This document shows positions 4,796-59,068 of a stretch of 64,000 bases of DNA, piece after piece (position 1 is the stretch's first letter; each line of letters begins with the position of its first letter). Source of the DNA: Candidatus Endomicrobium neocapritermitis. GTDB lineage: Bacteria > Elusimicrobiota > Endomicrobiia > Endomicrobiales > Endomicrobiaceae. The stretch covers positions 1-64,000 of the forward strand of contig WRJZ01000050.1 in NCBI GenBank assembly GCA_009778325.1. Direction: 5' to 3'. A program made the position numbers and the translations under genes. A model generated the notes under the pieces. It was not told the origin of the DNA, did no database searches, and saw nothing but the letters and a program-made list of their open reading frames with translations.

Positions 4796-4871
4796 GCCCC
4801 CATCGTCTAGGGGTCTAGGACACATGATTTTCAATCATGCGACCGGGGTTCAAATCCCCGTGGGGGCGCCA
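4796..4871 (+). tRNA. tRNA-Glu (anticodon UUC)
   Basis: The acceptor stem GCCCCCA pairs with TGGGGGC. The anticodon stem CATGA/TCATG encloses loop TTTTCAA (anticodon TTC), and the T arm is CGGGG-TTCAAAT-CCCCG. The CCA end is encoded (4869-4871), unlike the neighbouring tRNA-Lys. Confidence 0.95.
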
Positions 4872-4875
4872 TAAA

Positions 4876-5069
4876 GGCAATGATGTGTCACTACGTGACA
4901 TGGTGTGCGCTGTGCGCATGCTGTTTCCTTCGGAAATGCTGTATGTACTTCGTACACATTAAAGACAAGACACATTACATCATGTTGCCGCAAAGCGGCA
5001 ATACATCATTAGCGAAGCGACATCATGCGCCGAAGGCGTATATCATGGTCTGGAACTTATCATGCCGTT
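4876..5069. repeat. Large multi-hairpin element with branched palindrome
   Basis: Between outer ends GGCAATGATGT and ATCATGCCGTT lie about seven small hairpins: GTCACTACGTGAC, TGCGCTGTGCGCA, TTTCCTTCGGAAA, TGTACTTCGTACA, TTGCCGCAAAGCGGCAA, an imperfect AGCGAAGCGA and CGCCGAAGGCG. Short spacers read ATGNTGT on the left and ACATCAT on the right, so the spacers pair across the element and the hairpins project as side branches. No gene is supported here. Confidence 0.8.
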
Positions 5070-15884: not shown

Positions 15885-16033
15885 ACAATTACAAATTACT
15901 AATTACGAATCAAAAGCAAAGACAAAAGACAATTAACAAAAAACAAGTAATAAGAATAAAACATTGCAGTTTATTTATTGCCGTTAATCAGTTGCCGTTG
16001 ATTTGTAATTGGTAATTAGTAATTTGTAATTGT
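15885..16033. repeat. Intergenic palindrome (AATTACA/AATTACT arms)
   Basis: A perfect 22-bp inverted repeat is formed by 15885-15906 and 16012-16033. The loop holds two copies of TTGCCGTT (near 15978 and 15991). Confidence 0.9.
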
Positions 16034-19140: not shown

Positions 19141-19271
19141 GGCAGTTAATAGTTAATAGATAATAGGTAATAGTTATTGAATTTCGGCGAAGCCGAAATC
19201 TATTAACAGGTTTTCGCTTCGCGAAAACACCGAAACTATTCACTATTATCTATTAACTATTAACTGCCGTT
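19141..19271. repeat. Nested-palindrome element with two-hairpin core
   Basis: Arms 19141-19173 and 19236-19268 pair over 33 bases with two mismatches. The core has ATTTCGGCGAAGCCGAAAT (19181-19199) and GTTTTCGCTTCGCGAAAAC (19210-19228), joined by TCTATTAACAG. The core is the reverse complement of the core at 1-36. TGCCGTT ends the element and AAAAAGGGGG follows. Confidence 0.9.
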
Positions 19272-25306: not shown

Positions 25307-26088
25307 TAGAAATAAAAAATATACATGCCGGATATTCAAAAAAAGAAATACTGAAAAATATAGACTGCAGTATTGCGAAAGGTTCTTTTGCCGGTATTAT
25401 AGGCAGAAACGGGGCAGGCAAAAGCACTTTGCTTAAAGTTTTATGCGGGCTTTTAAAGCCTTTTTCAGGACAGATTTTTATTAACGGGCATGATGTTTAT
25501 GCGTCGTCAAAAAAAATACTGTCGAAGACAGTTTCTTTTATGCCGCAAAATATAGAGACGAATTTTCCGTTTACGGTTGAAGAGTTTGTAATGCTGGGCA
25601 GATATCCGTATATGAATATTTTTAAAATTCCTTCGCAAAAAGATTATGCTGCCGTTAATGAAGTTTTAAAATTTGCCGGAGCGGATGTCTTTGCGAAGAG
25701 ATATATAAACGAGCTTTCAGGAGGGGAAAAACAGAGAGTTTTGATAGCGCAGACAATAGCGCAGGAAACAGACATCATTATTTTCGACGAGCCTACATCC
25801 CATTTGGATATCGGAAGCCAGGCGGATATTCTCAATATTTTACGCGTTTTAAATAAAAAGTACGGTAAAACAATAGTAGTCACGCTTCATGATTTAAATG
25901 CGGCAGGAGAGTTTTGCGATTTTCTTATACTTATGGAAGAAGGAAGCATACGGAACACTGGCCATCCGGAAAAAGTTTTAAATTACAAAGATATAGAACA
26001 AGTTTATAAGACTACGGTTGTTGTAAAAACAAACCCGATGTCAAGTAAACCTTATGTAATAGCAGTGACGAAAGAGAATAGAGTATAG
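25303..26088 (+). CDS. btuD: Corrinoid ABC transporter ATP-binding protein
   Basis: This 261-residue ATPase energises corrinoid import. Walker A is GRNGAGKST, the signature is LSGGEKQR, Walker B is IIIFDEPTSHLD and the switch His is in TLHDLNAA. It starts in an ATGA overlap with btuC. The final residues (KENRV) and the stop are encoded by the left arm of the next palindromic element. The sequence also fits siderophore importers; the riboswitch and cobO make cobalamin the better call. Confidence 0.9.
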   Translation: MIEIKNIHAGYSKKEILKNIDCSIAKGSFAGIIGRNGAGKSTLLKVLCGLLKPFSGQIFINGHDVYASSKKILSKTVSFMPQNIETNFPFTVEEFVMLGRYPYMNIFKIPSQKDYAAVNEVLKFAGADVFAKRYINELSGGEKQRVLIAQTIAQETDIIIFDEPTSHLDIGSQADILNILRVLNKKYGKTIVVTLHDLNAAGEFCDFLILMEEGSIRNTGHPEKVLNYKDIEQVYKTTVVVKTNPMSSKPYVIAVTKENRV

Positions 26089-26208
26089 ATAATAGAGAAT
26101 AGATACGGCGTATTGTGTTTTCGCGAAGCGAAAACCTGTTAACTTGGTTTCGGCTAAGCCGAAACACCACATTTATTATCTATTATCTATACTCTATTAT
26201 CTGCCGTT
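26077..26208. repeat. Nested palindrome with two-hairpin core, abutting a riboswitch
   Basis: GAATAGAG-type arms begin at 26077 inside btuD and end TGCCGTT (26202-26208). The core is GTTTTCGCGAAGCGAAAAC (26117-26135) and GTTTCGGCTAAGCCGAAAC (26147-26165). The closing helix of riboswitch 2 begins three bases later. Confidence 0.88.
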
Positions 26209-26299
26209 TAGCAGGGGAATCCGGTGTAAATCCGGAACAGTCCGGCTACTGTGATTAGATGCTCGCTGAATGAGCGTCTATAAGTCAGAATACCTGCAA
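26209..26299 (+). ncRNA. Cobalamin riboswitch 2 (short form)
   Basis: GGGGAATCCGGTGTAAATCC, then ACAGTCCGGCTACTGTGA, and the B12-box-like AAGTCAGAATACCTGC are classic cobalamin aptamer segments. GCAGG (26211-26215) pairs with CCTGC (26293-26297) as closing helix. At about 90 nt it is the compact type lacking 5' accessory helices. It precedes btuB. No terminator is seen, so control is probably at translation. Confidence 0.9.
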
Positions 26300-26330
26300 A
26301 ATAATTCTATAGTCCCCAAGGAGGACATTT

Positions 26331-34621: not shown

Positions 34622-35187
34622 TGATAATAGGCTTAACAGGTTCATATTGTTCCGGGAAAGACACGGTAGCGGATTATATAACTGCAAAGCACGGTTTTTC
34701 GCACTATTCGCTGTCTGACGTAATAAGGGAATGCATGAAAGATGAAGGCGTTGAGCCTACAAGAGAAAATTTAATAGTTTTCGGCACGAATCTGCGCGTT
34801 CAAAACGGCAACGGGATTCTTGCAAAAAAAGTAATGTCTAAAATACAGGACGGTAAAAATTACTGTATAACTTCAATAAGGCATCCTGATGAGATAAACG
34901 AGCTGAGAAAAAGAAAAGATTTTATTTTAATTAACGTTGACGCTCCGCAAAGCATACGTTTTGAAAGAATGCAGAAAAGAAAAAGAGCGGGAGATCCGGA
35001 AACTTTGGAAAAGTTTATAGAATTTGAAAAAAGAGAATCTCAAAGCGAAGGCCCCGGGCAGCAGCTTGCAAAGAGCGCGGAAATGGCTGACATTGTCTTT
35101 ATAAATGACGTAAATAATTTGGAAGCATTAAACATAAAAATAGAAAGCCTTTTGAACAGCTTAAAGACAATGGTTAATGATAAATGA
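34621..35187 (+). CDS. P-loop nucleotide kinase-like protein (dephospho-CoA/dNMP kinase-like)
   Basis: This 188-residue protein has a Walker A motif at the N-terminus (GLTGSYCSGKDT) and a lid-like basic segment (RFERMQKRKRAGDPET). It resembles the dephospho-CoA kinase and deoxynucleotide kinase group, but I cannot fix the substrate. Its ATG overlaps the upstream stop. The last residues (KTMVNDK) and stop are written in the arm of a palindromic repeat. Confidence 0.7.
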   Translation: MIIGLTGSYCSGKDTVADYITAKHGFSHYSLSDVIRECMKDEGVEPTRENLIVFGTNLRVQNGNGILAKKVMSKIQDGKNYCITSIRHPDEINELRKRKDFILINVDAPQSIRFERMQKRKRAGDPETLEKFIEFEKRESQSEGPGQQLAKSAEMADIVFINDVNNLEALNIKIESLLNSLKTMVNDK

Positions 35188-35282
35188 TTAATTGAGGAGC
35201 GCGCGCAGCGCGCCTATTTTATAGGTGCGGCGAAGCCGCACACAACAATTTACCATTTATCATTAACCATTAACCATTAATT
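35169..35282. repeat. Nested palindrome with GC-rich core hairpins
   Basis: Arms AATGGTTAATGATAAATG (from 35169) and CATTTATCATTAACCATT (from about 35254) pair. The core uses different hairpins, GCGCGCGCAGCGCGC and GTGCGGCGAAGCCGCAC (35225-35241). The architecture is that of the other elements with different sequence. Confidence 0.88.
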
Positions 35283-35293
35283 GTGAGATATCA

Positions 35294-36526
35294 ATGTCTG
35301 AAATATACGATGTCGCCATCATAGGAGCCGGCGCTTCCGGCATGATTGCCGCAGGAAAAGCCGGCGAAAACGGATTTAAAACAATCCTTTTAGAAAAAAA
35401 ATCCCGTCCCGGAATAAAACTTTCAATTACAGGCAAAGGAAGATGCAACTTAACAAACAGCGCGGATATCAAAGAGTTTGTTAAGCTTTTCAGAAATGGG
35501 GAATTCCTTTATTCAGCGTTCAATGCTTTTTCAAATTCGGATACAATCGCTTTTTTTGAGAATCTCGGCGTTCCGTGCAAGCTGGAAAGAGGCGGAAGAT
35601 ACTTTCCGCAAAGCGATAAAGCTTCCGACGTTGTTAATGCTTTGACAAAATACGCAAAGAAAAGCTCGTCAATAATCACATCGTTTGACGTACGGGATAT
35701 CCGCAAAAACCAAGAAAATCTTTTCATTATTAATGACAATATTGCGGCAAAGAATATTATTATTGCCTGCGGAGGAATTACTTATCCTTCAACCGGTTCA
35801 ACCGGAGACGGATATAAAATAGCGCGGTATTTCGGACATGAAATTGCAGAACCTCTGCCGGCTTTGGTTCCCGTGAATTTAAAATGCGGCGATTTAAAAG
35901 AACTCAAAGGTCTGAAATTGAAAAATGTTGAAGTTTCTCTTTTTAACGAAAACAATATTGAAGCAAAAGAGTTTGGAGAAATGGAGTTTACGGTTTATGG
36001 CGCCGACGGACCTGTGATACTTACTTTAAGCGGCCTTATAAGCGAAAAGGTAAATAACTCAAAATTGTTTTTATCATTAAATTTGAAACCCGCGCTAAGC
36101 AAAGAGCAGTTGAATCAAAGGCTTCTCAGAGAGCTTGATAAATTCGGACAATACCAGCTTAAAGATATGCTTAAAGAATTGCTTCCGGTTCAGCTGATAA
36201 GACCATTTATCAATTATTGCAGGCTTACCATGACTAAGAAATGTTCGCAAATTAATAAAGTTGAAAGAACTAAAATGTCTGACGCTTTTTCAGATTTCAG
36301 GTTTGAAATATCCGGGATAAGAGACGCGAGAGAAGCCGTTATAACCAGAGGCGGCGTTTTAACAAATGAAATTGACCAAAAAACAATGCAGTCTAAAATC
36401 GTTCCCGGACTTTATTTTTGCGGAGAAATCATAGATATTGACGCGCCTACAGGCGGATTTAACCTGCAGGCGGCTTTTTCAACCGGATATTTGGCGGGAA
36501 ATTCTATAACGGCAGAGAAGAGATAA
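35294..36526 (+). CDS. HI0933/YhiN-family FAD-dependent flavoprotein
   Basis: This 410-residue flavoprotein has the dinucleotide motif GAGASGMIAAGKAG and the family's SITGKGRCNLTN, a marker for HI0933/YhiN proteins. FSTGYLAGNS closes the FAD domain near the C-terminus. The family is widespread, with no agreed reaction. The last residues (TAEKR) and stop codon lie in the left arm of a perfect 28-bp inverted repeat. It starts after TGAGATATCA with a weak Shine-Dalgarno. Confidence 0.9.
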   Translation: MSEIYDVAIIGAGASGMIAAGKAGENGFKTILLEKKSRPGIKLSITGKGRCNLTNSADIKEFVKLFRNGEFLYSAFNAFSNSDTIAFFENLGVPCKLERGGRYFPQSDKASDVVNALTKYAKKSSSIITSFDVRDIRKNQENLFIINDNIAAKNIIIACGGITYPSTGSTGDGYKIARYFGHEIAEPLPALVPVNLKCGDLKELKGLKLKNVEVSLFNENNIEAKEFGEMEFTVYGADGPVILTLSGLISEKVNNSKLFLSLNLKPALSKEQLNQRLLRELDKFGQYQLKDMLKELLPVQLIRPFINYCRLTMTKKCSQINKVERTKMSDAFSDFRFEISGIRDAREAVITRGGVLTNEIDQKTMQSKIVPGLYFCGEIIDIDAPTGGFNLQAAFSTGYLAGNSITAEKR

Positions 36527-36605
36527 TAGAGAATAGATAACAGATACGGCAAAGACAGTTAAAGTCAAGTTTTTCTCTATTCTCTATTATCTCTTCTCTG
36601 CCGTT
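36508..36605. repeat. Perfect 28-bp inverted repeat enclosing intergenic space
   Basis: AACGGCAGAGAAGAGATAAT and following (36508-36535) is exactly complementary to 36578-36605. It starts inside the upstream coding region, ends TGCCGTT and is followed by AAAAGGGG, the next Shine-Dalgarno. Confidence 0.95.
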
Positions 36606-36619
36606 AAAAGGGGATTAAA

Positions 36620-37535: not shown

Positions 37536-40205
37536 ATGTCAAAAATTTGGAGTTTTAACGATTCCGGGGAGTTAGCCGCAGCAGATTCAAGAAAGCTGCC
37601 TCAGCCGCTTATTCACATGCTTGCAAACAGTCCGCAGTATTTTTCAATCAGCGATAATTTTTTAAGAGGCTTCAGCGGCTTTGACTATACAAGGATGTTC
37701 GGCGAATTTGACAGCCCGAATTTTCCTAAAGGGCAGGCAAGATTTTTGTGGGTGAGGCCGGAAGGCAAAAAACCGTGGCTTGTCAACAATTACGATTTAA
37801 CGGTTAATGAAACATCGGAACCTAAATATGAAATGGGTTTGGGCTATGTGCGGTTTAGCGGTAAGTCTAAAAAGCATCAGCTTTCCGTATCTGCTGCCGT
37901 GTTTGTGCCCAATGATGATATGGCTGAAATATGGATGGTAGAAATTAAAAACGATTCAAATAAAGCGCAGACTCTTGATTTTATACCGGCAGTTCCGATT
38001 TTCGGCGGAAACAGGGCATATGTCGAGTATCACAGAGACGTTGTAAGGCTTTATAATAAAAGCAGAATTACGAATCATATAGAAATACTTCCGGGTCTTG
38101 AGTGGATAGAAGGTTCGACCGATTCAAGCAATATCTGTTATTTCATGGGAGCCCAAACGCAGAAAGGCAGAAAAGGAAACAGATTTTATTCCGACAGAGA
38201 AACATTTCTAGGCGCAAACAATATGTGGCTTAAACCTCAGGCGATAATGAATAATGAAGCGCCGAAAGCACAGTGCTGCGGAAAAGAAGCCGTAGGTGCA
38301 ATCGAATTCAAAAATATAACAATTCCCGCAGGAAAATCGGAAAAGTTTGTTATCGTTAACGGAATAACGTTTGGCGGAAGCATTGGCGCTGAAAAAGCGG
38401 TTAAAAAATATTCTTATGCGAACGCTGAAAAAGCATTTAAAAAACTCGGAGATTTTTGGAAAGAAAGAACTTCAAGAGTAGTTATCACCACCGGCAACAA
38501 AGATTTTAATGTTTCATGGAATACCTGGTGGTGCTACCAACTGTCTATGAGATATTGGTTCGGAAATACGGGGCATCCGCAGACGGATTACGGCACTGAC
38601 TTTTCCGGCTGGAGAGATTTTTGGCAGGATATGATGGCGGCAACAGTTATAGACCCTAAAGGTCTCGAAGAAAGAACGATGAAAACGCTTGAAGGAATAC
38701 GCGTTGACGGAACAAACGCCACAAGATTTTTCGCCAGAACAAAAGAGTTCGGAAGCGATGAAATACACGGCTTATGGTGCGATCATCCTTACTGGACAGC
38801 GCAGACTGTAATGATTCTTGTAAACTTTCTCGGCGATTATGATTTCTTATTCAGGCAGGGAGTCGCCTATTTTAAAGACGCTTACAGAAACAGAGGCGAA
38901 ATAAAAGATTTGGACTGGAAAGCGGGAACCATAGGAAATCATAAAACCGTAAACGGAAACGTATACAAGGGAACCGTTATAGAGCATCTTCTGGTGCAAA
39001 TTTTAACGATGTTCTATGATGTCGGCGATAATAATCTTCTTAAACAAAAAAGAGCGGACTGGAATGACGCCGTTGATCAGGTAAAGGGTGAAAATGTAAC
39101 TTTCACGTTTGGAACTGCTTTTGACTGCAACGAAGTTGCCGATATCCTAGAAAAAACCGCGAAACATAAAAATATTACGGAAATAGAAGTGTTTGAAGAG
39201 CTTACAATACTTATGGATAAGTGGAAAACTCCCGCGGACATTCCGGCGAAAGAGCGTCAGAAAAGGCTTAACGCTTATTTAAATAAAGTAAATAATAAGC
39301 TCAGCGGTAAAAAAGTAAAAGTAAAAGTTGCCGATATATTAAATGATTTAAGAAATAAAGCGAGAGTTTCTATCGCAAACGCTAATAAAAAAGCATGGAA
39401 CGGCAGCTATTACAGCAGCTATATATTTGACAACGGCAAACCGGTTGATACAATATTTAAAAATAACGCACTTTCAAAAAAGAACCCTACTTCGGACGAT
39501 TTTGAAATGATGCTTATGCCTCAGACATGGTCTTTGGTTTCCGGAGGAGCCGACAAAGCAAAAACGGTCGACAAAGTAATAGATTCGGTTTTCAAATATC
39601 TTTATGATAAGAAAGTAAAAGCTTTGAAGCTTAACTATCCGCCTTATCTTAAATTTGATAAAACCATCGGCAGAATCACAGGCTTTGCGGCCGGAACAAA
39701 AGAAAATAACGCTTTGTTCTGCCATGCGAATCTGTTTTTCGTATGGGCTATGCTTAAGAGAGACAGAGCCGATGACGCGTATAAAATTTTCTCCGGCGTC
39801 AATCCGCTAAATCACGAACATGAAACGTTTAGAAGCGGCCCGTGGATACCGGAATATTATGTTTCTTCGGACAATCCTAACATAGCCGGAAGGGGAGAAT
39901 ATCCGATTCTTACCGGCTCGGCCGCGTGGACAAGATATTTATTCCAGAATTTTTTCTTCGGAGTAAAAGGCGAACTTGACGGATTAAGAGTTGACCCTAG
40001 GCTTCCAGCTCACAAAGATTTTGCCGAATCTTCGCTAAGTATTAATTTCAGGGGAGCGCATTACAATATAAAGTTTTTTAACAAAGCCCTTAAGAAAAAC
40101 ACTAAAGCAAAAAAGATTATTGTTGACGGAAAAGAGATAAAAGGTACGCTTATACAGGCTTTCGGAAAGGGCGTACATAATGTGGAAGTGTATTTAGATA
40201 AGTAA
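37536..40205 (+). CDS. GH94-family glycoside phosphorylase
   Basis: This 889-residue cytosolic enzyme resembles cellobiose/chitobiose phosphorylases, which cleave beta-linked disaccharides with phosphate to save ATP. The N-terminal beta-sandwich (FSISDNFLRGFSGFDYTRMFG, PWLVNNYDLTV) is followed by an (alpha/alpha)6 barrel. GWRDFWQDMMAATVIDP carries the catalytic-acid Asp in the RDxxQD context of GH94. An insertion of about 150 residues (roughly 510-660) interrupts the barrel region. There is no signal peptide. ATG 37536 follows CAGGAG. The sugar specificity cannot be read from sequence, and no disaccharide transporter is adjacent. Confidence 0.82.
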   Translation: MSKIWSFNDSGELAAADSRKLPQPLIHMLANSPQYFSISDNFLRGFSGFDYTRMFGEFDSPNFPKGQARFLWVRPEGKKPWLVNNYDLTVNETSEPKYEMGLGYVRFSGKSKKHQLSVSAAVFVPNDDMAEIWMVEIKNDSNKAQTLDFIPAVPIFGGNRAYVEYHRDVVRLYNKSRITNHIEILPGLEWIEGSTDSSNICYFMGAQTQKGRKGNRFYSDRETFLGANNMWLKPQAIMNNEAPKAQCCGKEAVGAIEFKNITIPAGKSEKFVIVNGITFGGSIGAEKAVKKYSYANAEKAFKKLGDFWKERTSRVVITTGNKDFNVSWNTWWCYQLSMRYWFGNTGHPQTDYGTDFSGWRDFWQDMMAATVIDPKGLEERTMKTLEGIRVDGTNATRFFARTKEFGSDEIHGLWCDHPYWTAQTVMILVNFLGDYDFLFRQGVAYFKDAYRNRGEIKDLDWKAGTIGNHKTVNGNVYKGTVIEHLLVQILTMFYDVGDNNLLKQKRADWNDAVDQVKGENVTFTFGTAFDCNEVADILEKTAKHKNITEIEVFEELTILMDKWKTPADIPAKERQKRLNAYLNKVNNKLSGKKVKVKVADILNDLRNKARVSIANANKKAWNGSYYSSYIFDNGKPVDTIFKNNALSKKNPTSDDFEMMLMPQTWSLVSGGADKAKTVDKVIDSVFKYLYDKKVKALKLNYPPYLKFDKTIGRITGFAAGTKENNALFCHANLFFVWAMLKRDRADDAYKIFSGVNPLNHEHETFRSGPWIPEYYVSSDNPNIAGRGEYPILTGSAAWTRYLFQNFFFGVKGELDGLRVDPRLPAHKDFAESSLSINFRGAHYNIKFFNKALKKNTKAKKIIVDGKEIKGTLIQAFGKGVHNVEVYLDK

Positions 40206-40339
40206 AAGACAGTTAATAGTTAGTAGTGAGTAGTTAATAGTTGTTGAATTTCGGCGAAGCCGAAATCGATTAATAGGTTTTCGCTGCGCGAAAACACCAA
40301 TAACTACTCACTACTAACTACTAACTATTAACTGCCGTT
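40206..40339. repeat. Nested palindrome with two-hairpin core
   Basis: Arms of TAGTTAGTAG units pair across 40209-40234 and about 40301-40336; the right arm has one extra unit. The core is ATTTCGGCGAAGCCGAAAT and GTTTTCGCTGCGCGAAAAC (40277-40295), in the same orientation as at 19181. It ends TGCCGTT and AAAGGGG follows. Confidence 0.9.
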
Positions 40340-43739: not shown

Positions 43740-43837
43740 AAAGTTCAGAGTTCAAATTAGGTGTTTTCGTAAAACGAAAACCTATTAGTAAGTTTCGCCA
43801 AAGGCGAAACACATTATTTGAACTCTGAACTTTTTTT
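43740..43837. repeat. Nested palindrome acting as terminator
   Basis: AAAGTTCAGAGTTCAAAT (43740-43757) pairs perfectly with 43816-43833, followed by TTTT. The core is GTTTTCGTAAAACGAAAAC (43763-43781) and GTTTCGCCAAAGGCGAAAC (43792-43810). It sits between convergent genes and has a T-run, so it may end relA/spoT transcription. Confidence 0.88.
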
Positions 43838-53903: not shown

Positions 53904-55130
53904 ATGAACGGCAATGAAATTTCTTCATCTGTTTTTAATATAATCCAAGACATAAGGAAAAACGGGGATAAAGCTGTTTTTAAATACCTTAAAATGTTTG
54001 ACGGTATTGATTTGTCAAAAGAAGGGTATAAGACAGCGCAAAAAACAATCGGCGATGCGGCAAAAAATGTTTCTCCTGAGCTGAAAAGGGCGGTAAAGGC
54101 TTCATATAAGAATATTCTTGCCTTTCATAAGAGGGAAAATCTCCAAATAAAAAAAATCTGGAAAATCGGCAGAAAAGGATTTATAACGGGACAGTTTTAC
54201 AATCCTGTTGAATCCGCAGGAGTATATGTCCCTGGCGGGCGTTTTTCTTACCCTTCTAGCGTGCTGATGTCTGTTTTGCCTGCGATTGCGGCCGGGGTGA
54301 AGAGAATAATTATAACGACTCCGCCAAAAAAAATGAGCAATGAAGTTCTTTTCGCGGCGCAGTTGTGCGGAGTAAAGGAAATATATTGCATAGGCGGAGC
54401 ATCGGCAATAGCGGCAATGGCGTACGGTACGGAAAAATTAAAAAAAGTCGATATAATTGTAGGACCAGGAAACGCATATGTTAATGAAGCAAAAAGACAG
54501 GTTTTCGGGCAGGTAGGGATAGATTCTCTTGCAGGGCCAAGCGAAGTCGCAATAGTGGCGGATAAAGATGTTCCCGTTGATTATGCCGTAAATGATATAA
54601 TGGCTCAGGTTGAGCATGATCCTATGGCCAAGGCATATTTGTTTTGCGAAAGCAGAGAAAAAACCGAAAAAATAAAAAAAGCTTTGCCGAAAGAAGCTTT
54701 TAAACAGCTTAAAATAGAAGTTTGTACTTTGGAAAAGGCTATGGAAAAGGTAAACGGCATAGCCCCGGAGCATTTGGAGCTCCTTGTTAAAAATCCTGGA
54801 GCTTTGGTAAAAAAAGTAAAAAATGCCGGCGCTGTTTTCGCAGGATACCAGACGCCTACGGCGTCAGGGGATTATTGGGCGGGTCCGTCGCATGTTTTAC
54901 CTACGGCAGGTTCGGCAAAATTTGCAAGCGGTTTGTCCGTGATGTCGTTTTTGAAAAGAACAAGTTATATTGAAATGAATAAAAATAATAAAAAAGCTTA
55001 TAAAGAGATAATGGATTTTGCCGCGGCAGAGGGATTAGAGTTTCATAAAAAGTCGGCAGAGATAAGACAGAGTTCAAAGTGCAAAGTTCAGAGTTCAAAT
55101 CAGGAGTTTTCGCAAAGCGAAAACCTATAA
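53904..55130 (+). CDS. hisD: Histidinol dehydrogenase
   Basis: This zinc enzyme oxidises histidinol to histidine in two NAD-dependent steps. At 408 residues it keeps the conserved AGVYVPGGRFSYPSSVLM, IVGPGNAYVNEAKRQV, DSLAGPSEVAI, AQVEHDPMAKA (zinc-ligand region), IAPEHLELL and SGDYWAGPSHVLPT. The natural C-terminus is about residue 387. The last 20 or so residues (from QSSKCKVQSS) are translated from a palindromic repeat arm. The ATG lies seven bases after a good -10 box and has no Shine-Dalgarno, so the operon's first message may be leaderless. hisG and hisC are not in the window. Confidence 0.95.
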   Translation: MNGNEISSSVFNIIQDIRKNGDKAVFKYLKMFDGIDLSKEGYKTAQKTIGDAAKNVSPELKRAVKASYKNILAFHKRENLQIKKIWKIGRKGFITGQFYNPVESAGVYVPGGRFSYPSSVLMSVLPAIAAGVKRIIITTPPKKMSNEVLFAAQLCGVKEIYCIGGASAIAAMAYGTEKLKKVDIIVGPGNAYVNEAKRQVFGQVGIDSLAGPSEVAIVADKDVPVDYAVNDIMAQVEHDPMAKAYLFCESREKTEKIKKALPKEAFKQLKIEVCTLEKAMEKVNGIAPEHLELLVKNPGALVKKVKNAGAVFAGYQTPTASGDYWAGPSHVLPTAGSAKFASGLSVMSFLKRTSYIEMNKNNKKAYKEIMDFAAAEGLEFHKKSAEIRQSSKCKVQSSNQEFSQSENL

Positions 55131-55188
55131 TAAGTTTCGCCGGTGGCGAAACACCATATTTGAACTCTGAACTCTGAACTTTGTCGTT
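55074..55188. repeat. Nested palindrome read into the hisD C-terminus
   Basis: AGTTCAGAGTTCAAAT-type arms lie on both sides, the right arm with one more unit. The core is GTTTTCGCAAAGCGAAAAC (55106-55124) and GTTTCGCCGGTGGCGAAAC (55134-55152). It starts about 57 bases before the hisD stop and ends TTGTCGTT, followed by AGAAAGGGG. Confidence 0.9.
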
Positions 55189-56033: not shown

Positions 56034-56121
56034 AATTACAAATTACGAATTACGAATTACGAATCAAAGACAAAAGCAGTTCTGCCGTTGATTCGTAATT
56101 CGTAATTCGTAATTCGTAATT
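56034..56121. repeat. 34-bp inverted repeat (AATTACG units) between hisB and hisA
   Basis: 56034-56067 pairs with 56088-56121 with one mismatch around a 20-nt loop containing TTCTGCCG. A short direct duplication CGGCAATTA precedes it. Confidence 0.95.
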
Positions 56122-57640: not shown

Positions 57641-57642
57641 AA

Positions 57643-57766
57643 AGGCAGATAATAGAGTATAGAGAATAGAGTTTAAATAAAGTGTTTTCGCGAAGCGAAA
57701 ACTTATAAACAGGTTTCGGCAAAGCCGAAACACAATAACTATTCTCTATTATCTATTCTCTGCCGT
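57643..57766. repeat. Nested palindrome with two-hairpin core
   Basis: GGCAGATAATAGAG-type arms (57643-57668 and 57738-57763, a few mismatches). The core is GTTTTCGCGAAGCGAAAAC (57683-57701) and GTTTCGGCAAAGCCGAAAC (57712-57730). It ends TGCCGTT and AAAAAGGGG follows. Confidence 0.88.
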
Positions 57767-57782
57767 TAAAAAGGGGTTTATA

Positions 57783-58172
57783 GTGGAAAAAGTGATTAAA
57801 GCTTTGAAATTTGACGACAAAGGGTTGATTCCCGTTGTGGTACAGGACTGGAAAGATAATGCTGTTTTAATGGTTGCTTATATGAATAAAGAAGCGGTCA
57901 AAAGAACTTTAAAGACAAAAAAAGCTACGTTCTGGAGCCGTTCAAGGCAGTCTTTTTGGGTTAAAGGCGAAAGCTCGGGAAATATACAAAAAGTTAAAGA
58001 ATTTTATTATGACTGCGACGGCGACTGCATTGTTATAAAAGTACAGCAGATTGGCGGAGCAGCATGCCATACCGGGCACAGAAGCTGTTTTTTTACAAAG
58101 GTGACATCCTCGGGAAATACGAAAACCGTAGGAAAGAAGCTGTTTGATCCGGAAAAAGTTTATAAAAAATAG
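57783..58172 (+). CDS. hisI: Phosphoribosyl-AMP cyclohydrolase
   Basis: This enzyme opens the purine ring of PR-AMP, the third step of histidine synthesis. The 129-residue protein is HisI only, without the HisE pyrophosphohydrolase domain. The metal-binding YYDCDGDC and the Cys/His set of [13 protein letters not shown] are present, as is [16 protein letters not shown]. The start codon is GTG after AAAAAGGGG from the repeat. Its stop codon lies in the first bases of the next palindrome. Confidence 0.95.
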
Positions 58173-58287
58173 TTAGTAGTTAGCAGTGAGTAGTTAGTAG
58201 TTGTCGTGCGGGACTTTGTCCCGCTTGTTGATAGGCGCGCAAAGCGCGTTCAATAATTACTCACTACTCACTATTCACTACTAACTG
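58171..58287. repeat. Nested palindrome with alternative core hairpins
   Basis: AGTTAGTAG-type arms on both sides. Core hairpins are GCGGGACTTTGTCCCGC (58208-58224) and GCGCGCAAAGCGCG (58234 on) instead of the common pair. Confidence 0.88.
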
Positions 58288-58929: not shown

Positions 58930-59052
58930 CAATTAATAAGTAATAATTAACAAGTAACAATTTTTGTGTTTTTGCAAAGCAAAAACTTATAAATAGGTTT
59001 CGCCTGCGGCGAAACTCCATAATTGTTAACTGTTATTTGTTAATTGTTAATT
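58930..59052. repeat. Nested palindrome with two-hairpin core
   Basis: AATTAATAAGTAATAATTAA-type left arm pairs with AATTGTTAACTGTTATTTG-type right arm. The core is GTTTTTGCAAAGCAAAAAC (58968-58986) and GTTTCGCCTGCGGCGAAAC (58997-59015). In the first hairpin both stem strands carry matching changes (CGC to TGC on one side, GCG to GCA on the other), so pairing is kept. Confidence 0.9.
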
Positions 59053-59068
59053 ATTTAAGAGGGATAAA

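Follow-up and report, generated by a model that had tools for sequence, protein, structure and literature searches.

Immediately 3' of the tRNA-Glu gene, the window (the whole stretch of 64,000 nucleotides analyzed here) carries an element at positions 4873-5069 that consists of an inverted pair of arrays capped by end heptads, AAAGGCA on the left and TGCCGTT on the right (Table 1). In the left arm, four heptads of the type ATGNTGT (ATGATGT, ATGGTGT, ATGCTGT and ATGCTGT) alternate with four hairpins; in the right arm, three hairpins alternate with three ACATCAT heptads and a last heptad, ATATCAT. All parts of the palindrome described in the initial annotation, about seven side hairpins spaced by ATGNTGT and ACATCAT heptads, are present, and the end heptads AAMGRCA/TGYCKTT are indeed common to this element and the two-hairpin elements. 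The encoded CCA of the tRNA-Glu gene (window 4868-4871) sits precisely where gene and element meet and is absent in genomes G001, G004 and G005. The possibility that the encoded CCA betrays an RNA intermediate was rejected because that of tRNA-Ser is ancestral, occurring in both G002 and G036.

Table 1. Components of the branched element and coordinates of the AGAGTGTGTTCACACATATTACGC-ended repeat.
Feature	Position	Strand	Remark
tRNA-Glu gene	4796..4871	+	3' end adjoins element, which starts 0-3 nt beyond
left end heptad AAAGGCA	4873..4879	+	motif AAMGRCA, common to other palindromes of the genome
trunk heptad 1 ATGATGT	4880..4886	+	sequence, aligned copies
hairpin H1 GTCAC-TAC-GTGAC	4887..4899	+	compensatory change among copies
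trunk heptad 2 ATGGTGT	4900..4906	+	sequence, aligned copies
hairpin H2 GCGC-TGT-GCGC	4907..4917	+	compensatory changes among copies
trunk heptad 3 ATGCTGT	4918..4924	+	sequence, aligned copies
hairpin H3 TTCC-TTC-GGAA	4925..4935	+	pairs invariant among copies
trunk heptad 4 ATGCTGT	4936..4942	+	sequence, aligned copies
hairpin H4 TGTAC-TTC-GTACA	4944..4956	+	stem swapped as block in other copies (TGCGC, ATATCC)
apex linker	4957..4976	+	contains AAAGACA (end-heptad-like word) and GACACATT
trunk heptad 4' ACATCAT	4977..4983	+	sequence
hairpin R1 TTGCCGC-AAA-GCGGCAA	4985..5001	+	sequence, aligned copies
trunk heptad 3' ACATCAT	5003..5009	+	sequence
weak hairpin R2 TAGC-GAA-GCG	5010..5019	+	sequence, aligned copies
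trunk heptad 2' ACATCAT	5020..5026	+	sequence
hairpin R3 CGCC-GAA-GGCG	5028..5038	+	sequence, aligned copies
trunk heptad 1' ATATCAT	5040..5046	+	sequence
extra segment GGTCTGGAACTTATCA	5047..5062	+	otherwise only in L018 and L023 (subfamily)
right end heptad TGCCGTT	5063..5069	+	sequence, other copies
AGAGTGTGTTCACACATATTACGC-ended repeat	L166:11167-11436
AGAGTGTGTTCACACATATTACGC-ended repeat	L168:14729-14999
AGAGTGTGTTCACACATATTACGC-ended repeat	L169:8065-8335
AGAGTGTGTTCACACATATTACGC-ended repeat	L172:12439-12656
AGAGTGTGTTCACACATATTACGC-ended repeat	L176:9693-9963
AGAGTGTGTTCACACATATTACGC-ended repeat	L180:10778-10913

A search of the window genome (G000; 2.38 Mb in 54 contigs) for further copies, as proposed in the initial annotation, revealed ∼30 dispersed related places, several of them 85-93% identical over long stretches; the notion that no second copy exists is thereby refuted. 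Seventeen of these places coincide with contig ends, the assembly having been interrupted by the repeat, and the actual number of elements is therefore about 21-29. Exact three-heptad arrays numbered 56 in G000, 9 in G001, 2 in G002 and 2 in G003; the exact motif occurred in four of the five genus genomes and was absent from the 290 other genomes of the phylum that were searched. Species differ in the word (ATGATGT, ATGATAC), which is altered in both arms together: G003 mainly carries ATGATAC, with GTATCAT in the opposite arm. Plasmid and phage collections yielded no match. At L031:1-345 in G001, two branched elements are arranged in tandem, one hairpin being swollen by an inner hairpin (GGGTCAAAGACCC); L039 is one unit shorter than L031.

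A scanner for a repeated 7-mer plus hairpin followed by its complement plus hairpin recovered the genuine copies and gave no hits in block-shuffled sequence (1.23 Mb and 0.39 Mb). In an alignment of 18 copies, 97.8% of the cells pair. Both sides of the pair had changed in 27 cells (7.7 by shuffling), and none of 500 shuffles attained the observed covariation score. The excess arises because the H1, H2 and H4 stems are swapped as blocks (TGTAC/GTACA, TGCGC/GCGCA, ATATCC/GGATAT). Neither RNA nor DNA parameters give the fully branched fold as the energy minimum (as RNA, -37.8 kcal/mol for the window copy versus a minimum of -71.1 kcal/mol); the energy models favour rods in which left hairpin strands pair with right hairpin strands. 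The proposed trunk with side branches is thus supported by comparison of copies, not by computed energies.

The repeating unit is polar: a 7-nt word comes first, then a mini-hairpin tipped C-TNC-G. In the orientation of the word, 95 of 144 unique hairpins have a TNC triloop and none has GNA, and the closing pair is C-G in 177 of 199 hairpins. Loop type goes with the strand that carries the word, so that the two arms bear opposite loop types on any one strand; loop polarity relative to the word is retained even in the few divergent elements with the opposite arm order. Such mirrored loops are not expected from selection on a single RNA. Nor is there wobble tolerance: 3 G.T pairs were counted against 12 A.C mismatches among 1062 pairs (6 against 9 in the 18-copy alignment), and with G.U rarer than A.C there is therefore no sign of selection as RNA. 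Inverted pairing is nearly obligatory, since 13 of 16 G000 arrays of at least three units have an inverted partner and the remaining three sit at contig ends; in Clostridia, a partner was found for 37 of ∼40 genuine arrays of at least three units. The mini-hairpin d(CGCGAAGCG) is reportedly of extraordinary stability as DNA (PMC10527192); its relevance to these elements is conjectural.

Insertion is biased towards gene borders. The left end of eight copies lies 0-4 nt from the 3' end of a tRNA or tmRNA gene (Glu, Tyr, Ser, Leu-TAG, Met, Leu-TAA, Ala and tmRNA), and one further copy (L019) adjoins the 5' end of tRNA-Pro-CGG; across 460 kb that contain just 10 tRNA genes, three of five branched copies abut one of these genes. 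Other copies precede ribosome-binding sites or follow protein genes. A hairpin was present at 60% of left flanks in G000 compared with 29% of random positions, but the excess is accounted for by the tRNAs, and hairpin-targeted insertion was rejected. In Clostridia, ∼20 of 26 unique elements, as judged by eye, lie beside an intrinsic terminator, usually past it or beside a bidirectional one. In G036, which belongs to the same order but another family, heptads of the TAACTGA/TAACTGG type were observed 5' of tRNA-Leu (L247, L253), one array being capped by TGTCGTTA.

Orthologous sites differ both in presence and in content. The tRNA-Glu/purA interval is devoid of the branched element in G001 and G004, and tRNA-Leu sites are empty in G001 or G002. 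The tRNA-Tyr/Gly spacer contains a different capped palindrome in each of three species; the tRNA-Met site has an ATGATGT element in G000 and an ATGATAC element in G003; and the site of the branched element L010 is occupied by a two-hairpin element in G001 and is empty in G002 and G004. Copies therefore move or are exchanged in place. At these polymorphic sites no target-site duplication was resolvable, the empty sites being too diverged.

Many plain-arm palindromes of the genome carry the AAMGRCA/TGYCKTT ends, often together with the same two-hairpin apex, and three elements (L026, L028 and L029) are hybrids in which branched arms are joined to a two-hairpin apex. Together, hybrids and common ends place the branched element within a wider family of capped palindromes, of which it forms one branch.

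When one genome per species was scanned for three spaced ACATCAT words, most matches were due to chance or to coding repeats; among the matches listed, the full two-arm architecture was found at at least 10 loci of gut or rumen Clostridia. Elements of Clostridia also use other words, namely GTGAAAT, ATGAAAT, ATGAAGC, GTGATAT, GTTATAT and ATGATAT. One arm of the Clostridia elements is matched by Gut-1 RNA (Rfam RF01706; 66.9 bits in L148). RF01706 was present in all 10 Clostridia genomes picked by the ATGATGT/ACATCAT pattern, in nine of them above the gathering cutoff, and 27 of 50 above-cutoff matches have a convergent partner match on the opposite strand, mostly at a distance of 17-22 nt (3 of 50 have a divergent one). 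The window element gave no RF01706 score above the gathering cutoff. Both share a 7-nt word (GTGAAAT in Gut-1) alternating with mini-hairpins with CUUCG-type tips, but Gut-1 is defined as a 77-nt RNA of one arm only, whereas the Clostridia elements have two arms. Weinberg et al. (2010), who described Gut-1 from human gut sequences, do not mention a second arm in the main-text passages on this RNA (PMC2864571). The sequence comparison suggests that 'Gut-1 RNA' may be one arm of a mobile DNA element. GTGAAAT branched palindromes also occur on four IMG/VR viral contigs (L389:5024-5177, L430:13093-13257, L454:638-1001 and L480:1019-1200), possibly a route of transfer.

The branched element is real, dispersed and structured, and its architecture is a variant of the REPIN/MITE kind. 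Like REPINs or REP-BIMEs (PMC3116915), it is built of polar hairpin units in inverted pairs and is intergenic, dispersed and non-autonomous; unlike them, it has 2-4 units per arm, unusually short hairpins, no constant Y1 transposase partner, and units that start with a heptad (ATGATGT or another word) rather than a GTAG-type tetranucleotide tag. Y1 transposase genes are present in G000 and G001; none (PF01797) was found in the carriers G002, G003, G060, G067, G068 and G069, several of which are incomplete, and at the one of three G000 Y1 genes inspected (L180), the ∼2 kb covered contain no heptad palindrome. A RAYT partner was rejected, as the Y1 distribution is inconsistent with the carriers, some of them incomplete genomes. 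With MITEs the element shares short non-coding copies, common terminal heptads (AAMGRCA/TGYCKTT) and insertion polymorphism, but inverted arrays fill nearly its whole length, and no autonomous partner came up in a non-systematic search. Intergenic 7-nt words are also typical of heptanucleotide tandem repeats such as those of cyanobacteria; TAACTGA, the heptad of the G036 arrays, is reported from Beggiatoaceae and cyanobacteria (PMC4679880). The plain-arm palindromes of the window genome are of this kind, whereas the branched element has hairpins of ∼9-19 nt between its words, which are thus not directly adjacent, and a complementary array. The element may also resemble the small dispersed repeats of cyanobacteria, reportedly described by Elhai and colleagues (2008) as very small mobile hairpin-like sequences lodged within other repeats.

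We favour, with moderate confidence, the interpretation that the element is non-autonomous mobile DNA made of two inverted arrays of a polar module of word and mini-hairpin. The arms would fold while the DNA is single-stranded, and a host or transposon enzyme might recognise the ends or the units and then insert or swap copies. Replication slippage and quasipalindrome template switching would keep the words alike and, in part, the stems perfect; an RNA fold, if formed, would be incidental. According to published studies, template switching creates and maintains hairpins with compensatory changes (PMC8794818), causes quasipalindrome mutations in E. coli (PMC7202029) and homogenises inverted repeats (PMC8604942); stems can hence stay perfect without selection. 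The alternative of the initial annotation, a compound of repeated insertions, came close, in that the element is modular, dispersed, polymorphic at orthologous sites and sometimes tandem or hybrid.

The same mutational processes could in principle suffice by themselves. Heptamer repeats, for which a link with polymerase slippage has been drawn, are more frequent than expected in bacteria (PMC4692102), a unit has been lost between L031 and L039, and template switching can produce compensatory changes with no need for selection. That heptad slippage and palindrome correction at the fork built and spread these structures without a dedicated enzyme is nonetheless unlikely, if worth entertaining, since it leaves unexplained the ∼90%-identical copies at many unlinked sites, the insertion flush with tRNA ends, the identical end heptads on unrelated arms and a loop polarity common across phyla.

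We consider it improbable that the element encodes a structured, Gut-1-like sRNA, produced together with the tRNA or next to it and selected for its fold, although Rfam classes Gut-1 as an sRNA, Weinberg et al. judged it most likely a non-coding RNA (PMC2864571), and the stems covary. In the window copy, the only one so analyzed, the + strand also folds better than shuffles (z-score -2.97) and the - strand does not (-0.39). Eight of nine copies next to tRNA or tmRNA genes have one orientation, which a transcript-based function would predict likewise and which counts against mobile DNA. Against the sRNA reading stand the lack of a G.U excess, the mirrored arms with loop types set by the strand of the word, divergent elements included, and the replacement of content between sister species; with L019 on the 5' side of its tRNA and the Clostridia copies mostly past a terminator or beside a bidirectional one, the structured RNA from the tRNA promoter envisaged in the initial annotation is not supported. 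The location of G000 copies at tRNA and tmRNA 3' ends and of Clostridia copies at terminators could point to a terminator, attenuator or 3'-end stabiliser of tRNA operons. This is highly improbable: no intrinsic terminator was found at the end of the window copy, the Clostridia sites already possess terminators, and some copies are found ahead of ribosome-binding sites, downstream of protein genes or 5' of a tRNA.

Extended beyond the genus, the mobile-DNA interpretation becomes more tentative. It would comprise a cross-phylum class of inverted polar heptad-minihairpin arrays. Gut-1 would be one arm of such an element, and an enzyme that may read DNA hairpins would exchange copies at fixed slots beside tRNA genes and terminators. 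The connection with Gut-1 carries the greatest consequences. If correct, a family that Rfam lists as a gut-specific RNA would be half of a mobile DNA element, and covariation-based RNA calls would need rereading because the pairing of stems can originate in the DNA itself; G.U content and mirrored loop polarity provide simple tests of such calls. It would also point to an enzyme acting on arrays of tiny hairpins, and to tRNA-side slots in which palindromes are exchanged between species.

Plain-arm intergenic palindromes of heptads or octads, with various words, were observed elsewhere in the window at 15885-16033, 19141-19268, 26068-26207, 35169-35278, 36507-36606, 40205-40339, 43740-43833, 55068-55183, 56041-56121, 57641-57767, 58171-58286 and 58935-59055. 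At its 5' edge, a cobalamin riboswitch (26168-26315) shares sequence with the heptad palindrome starting at 26068, which may disturb or delimit it. A further palindromic repeat, as long as ∼270 nt and with ends like AGAGTGTGTTCACACATATTACGC, is also scattered through the genome (Table 1).
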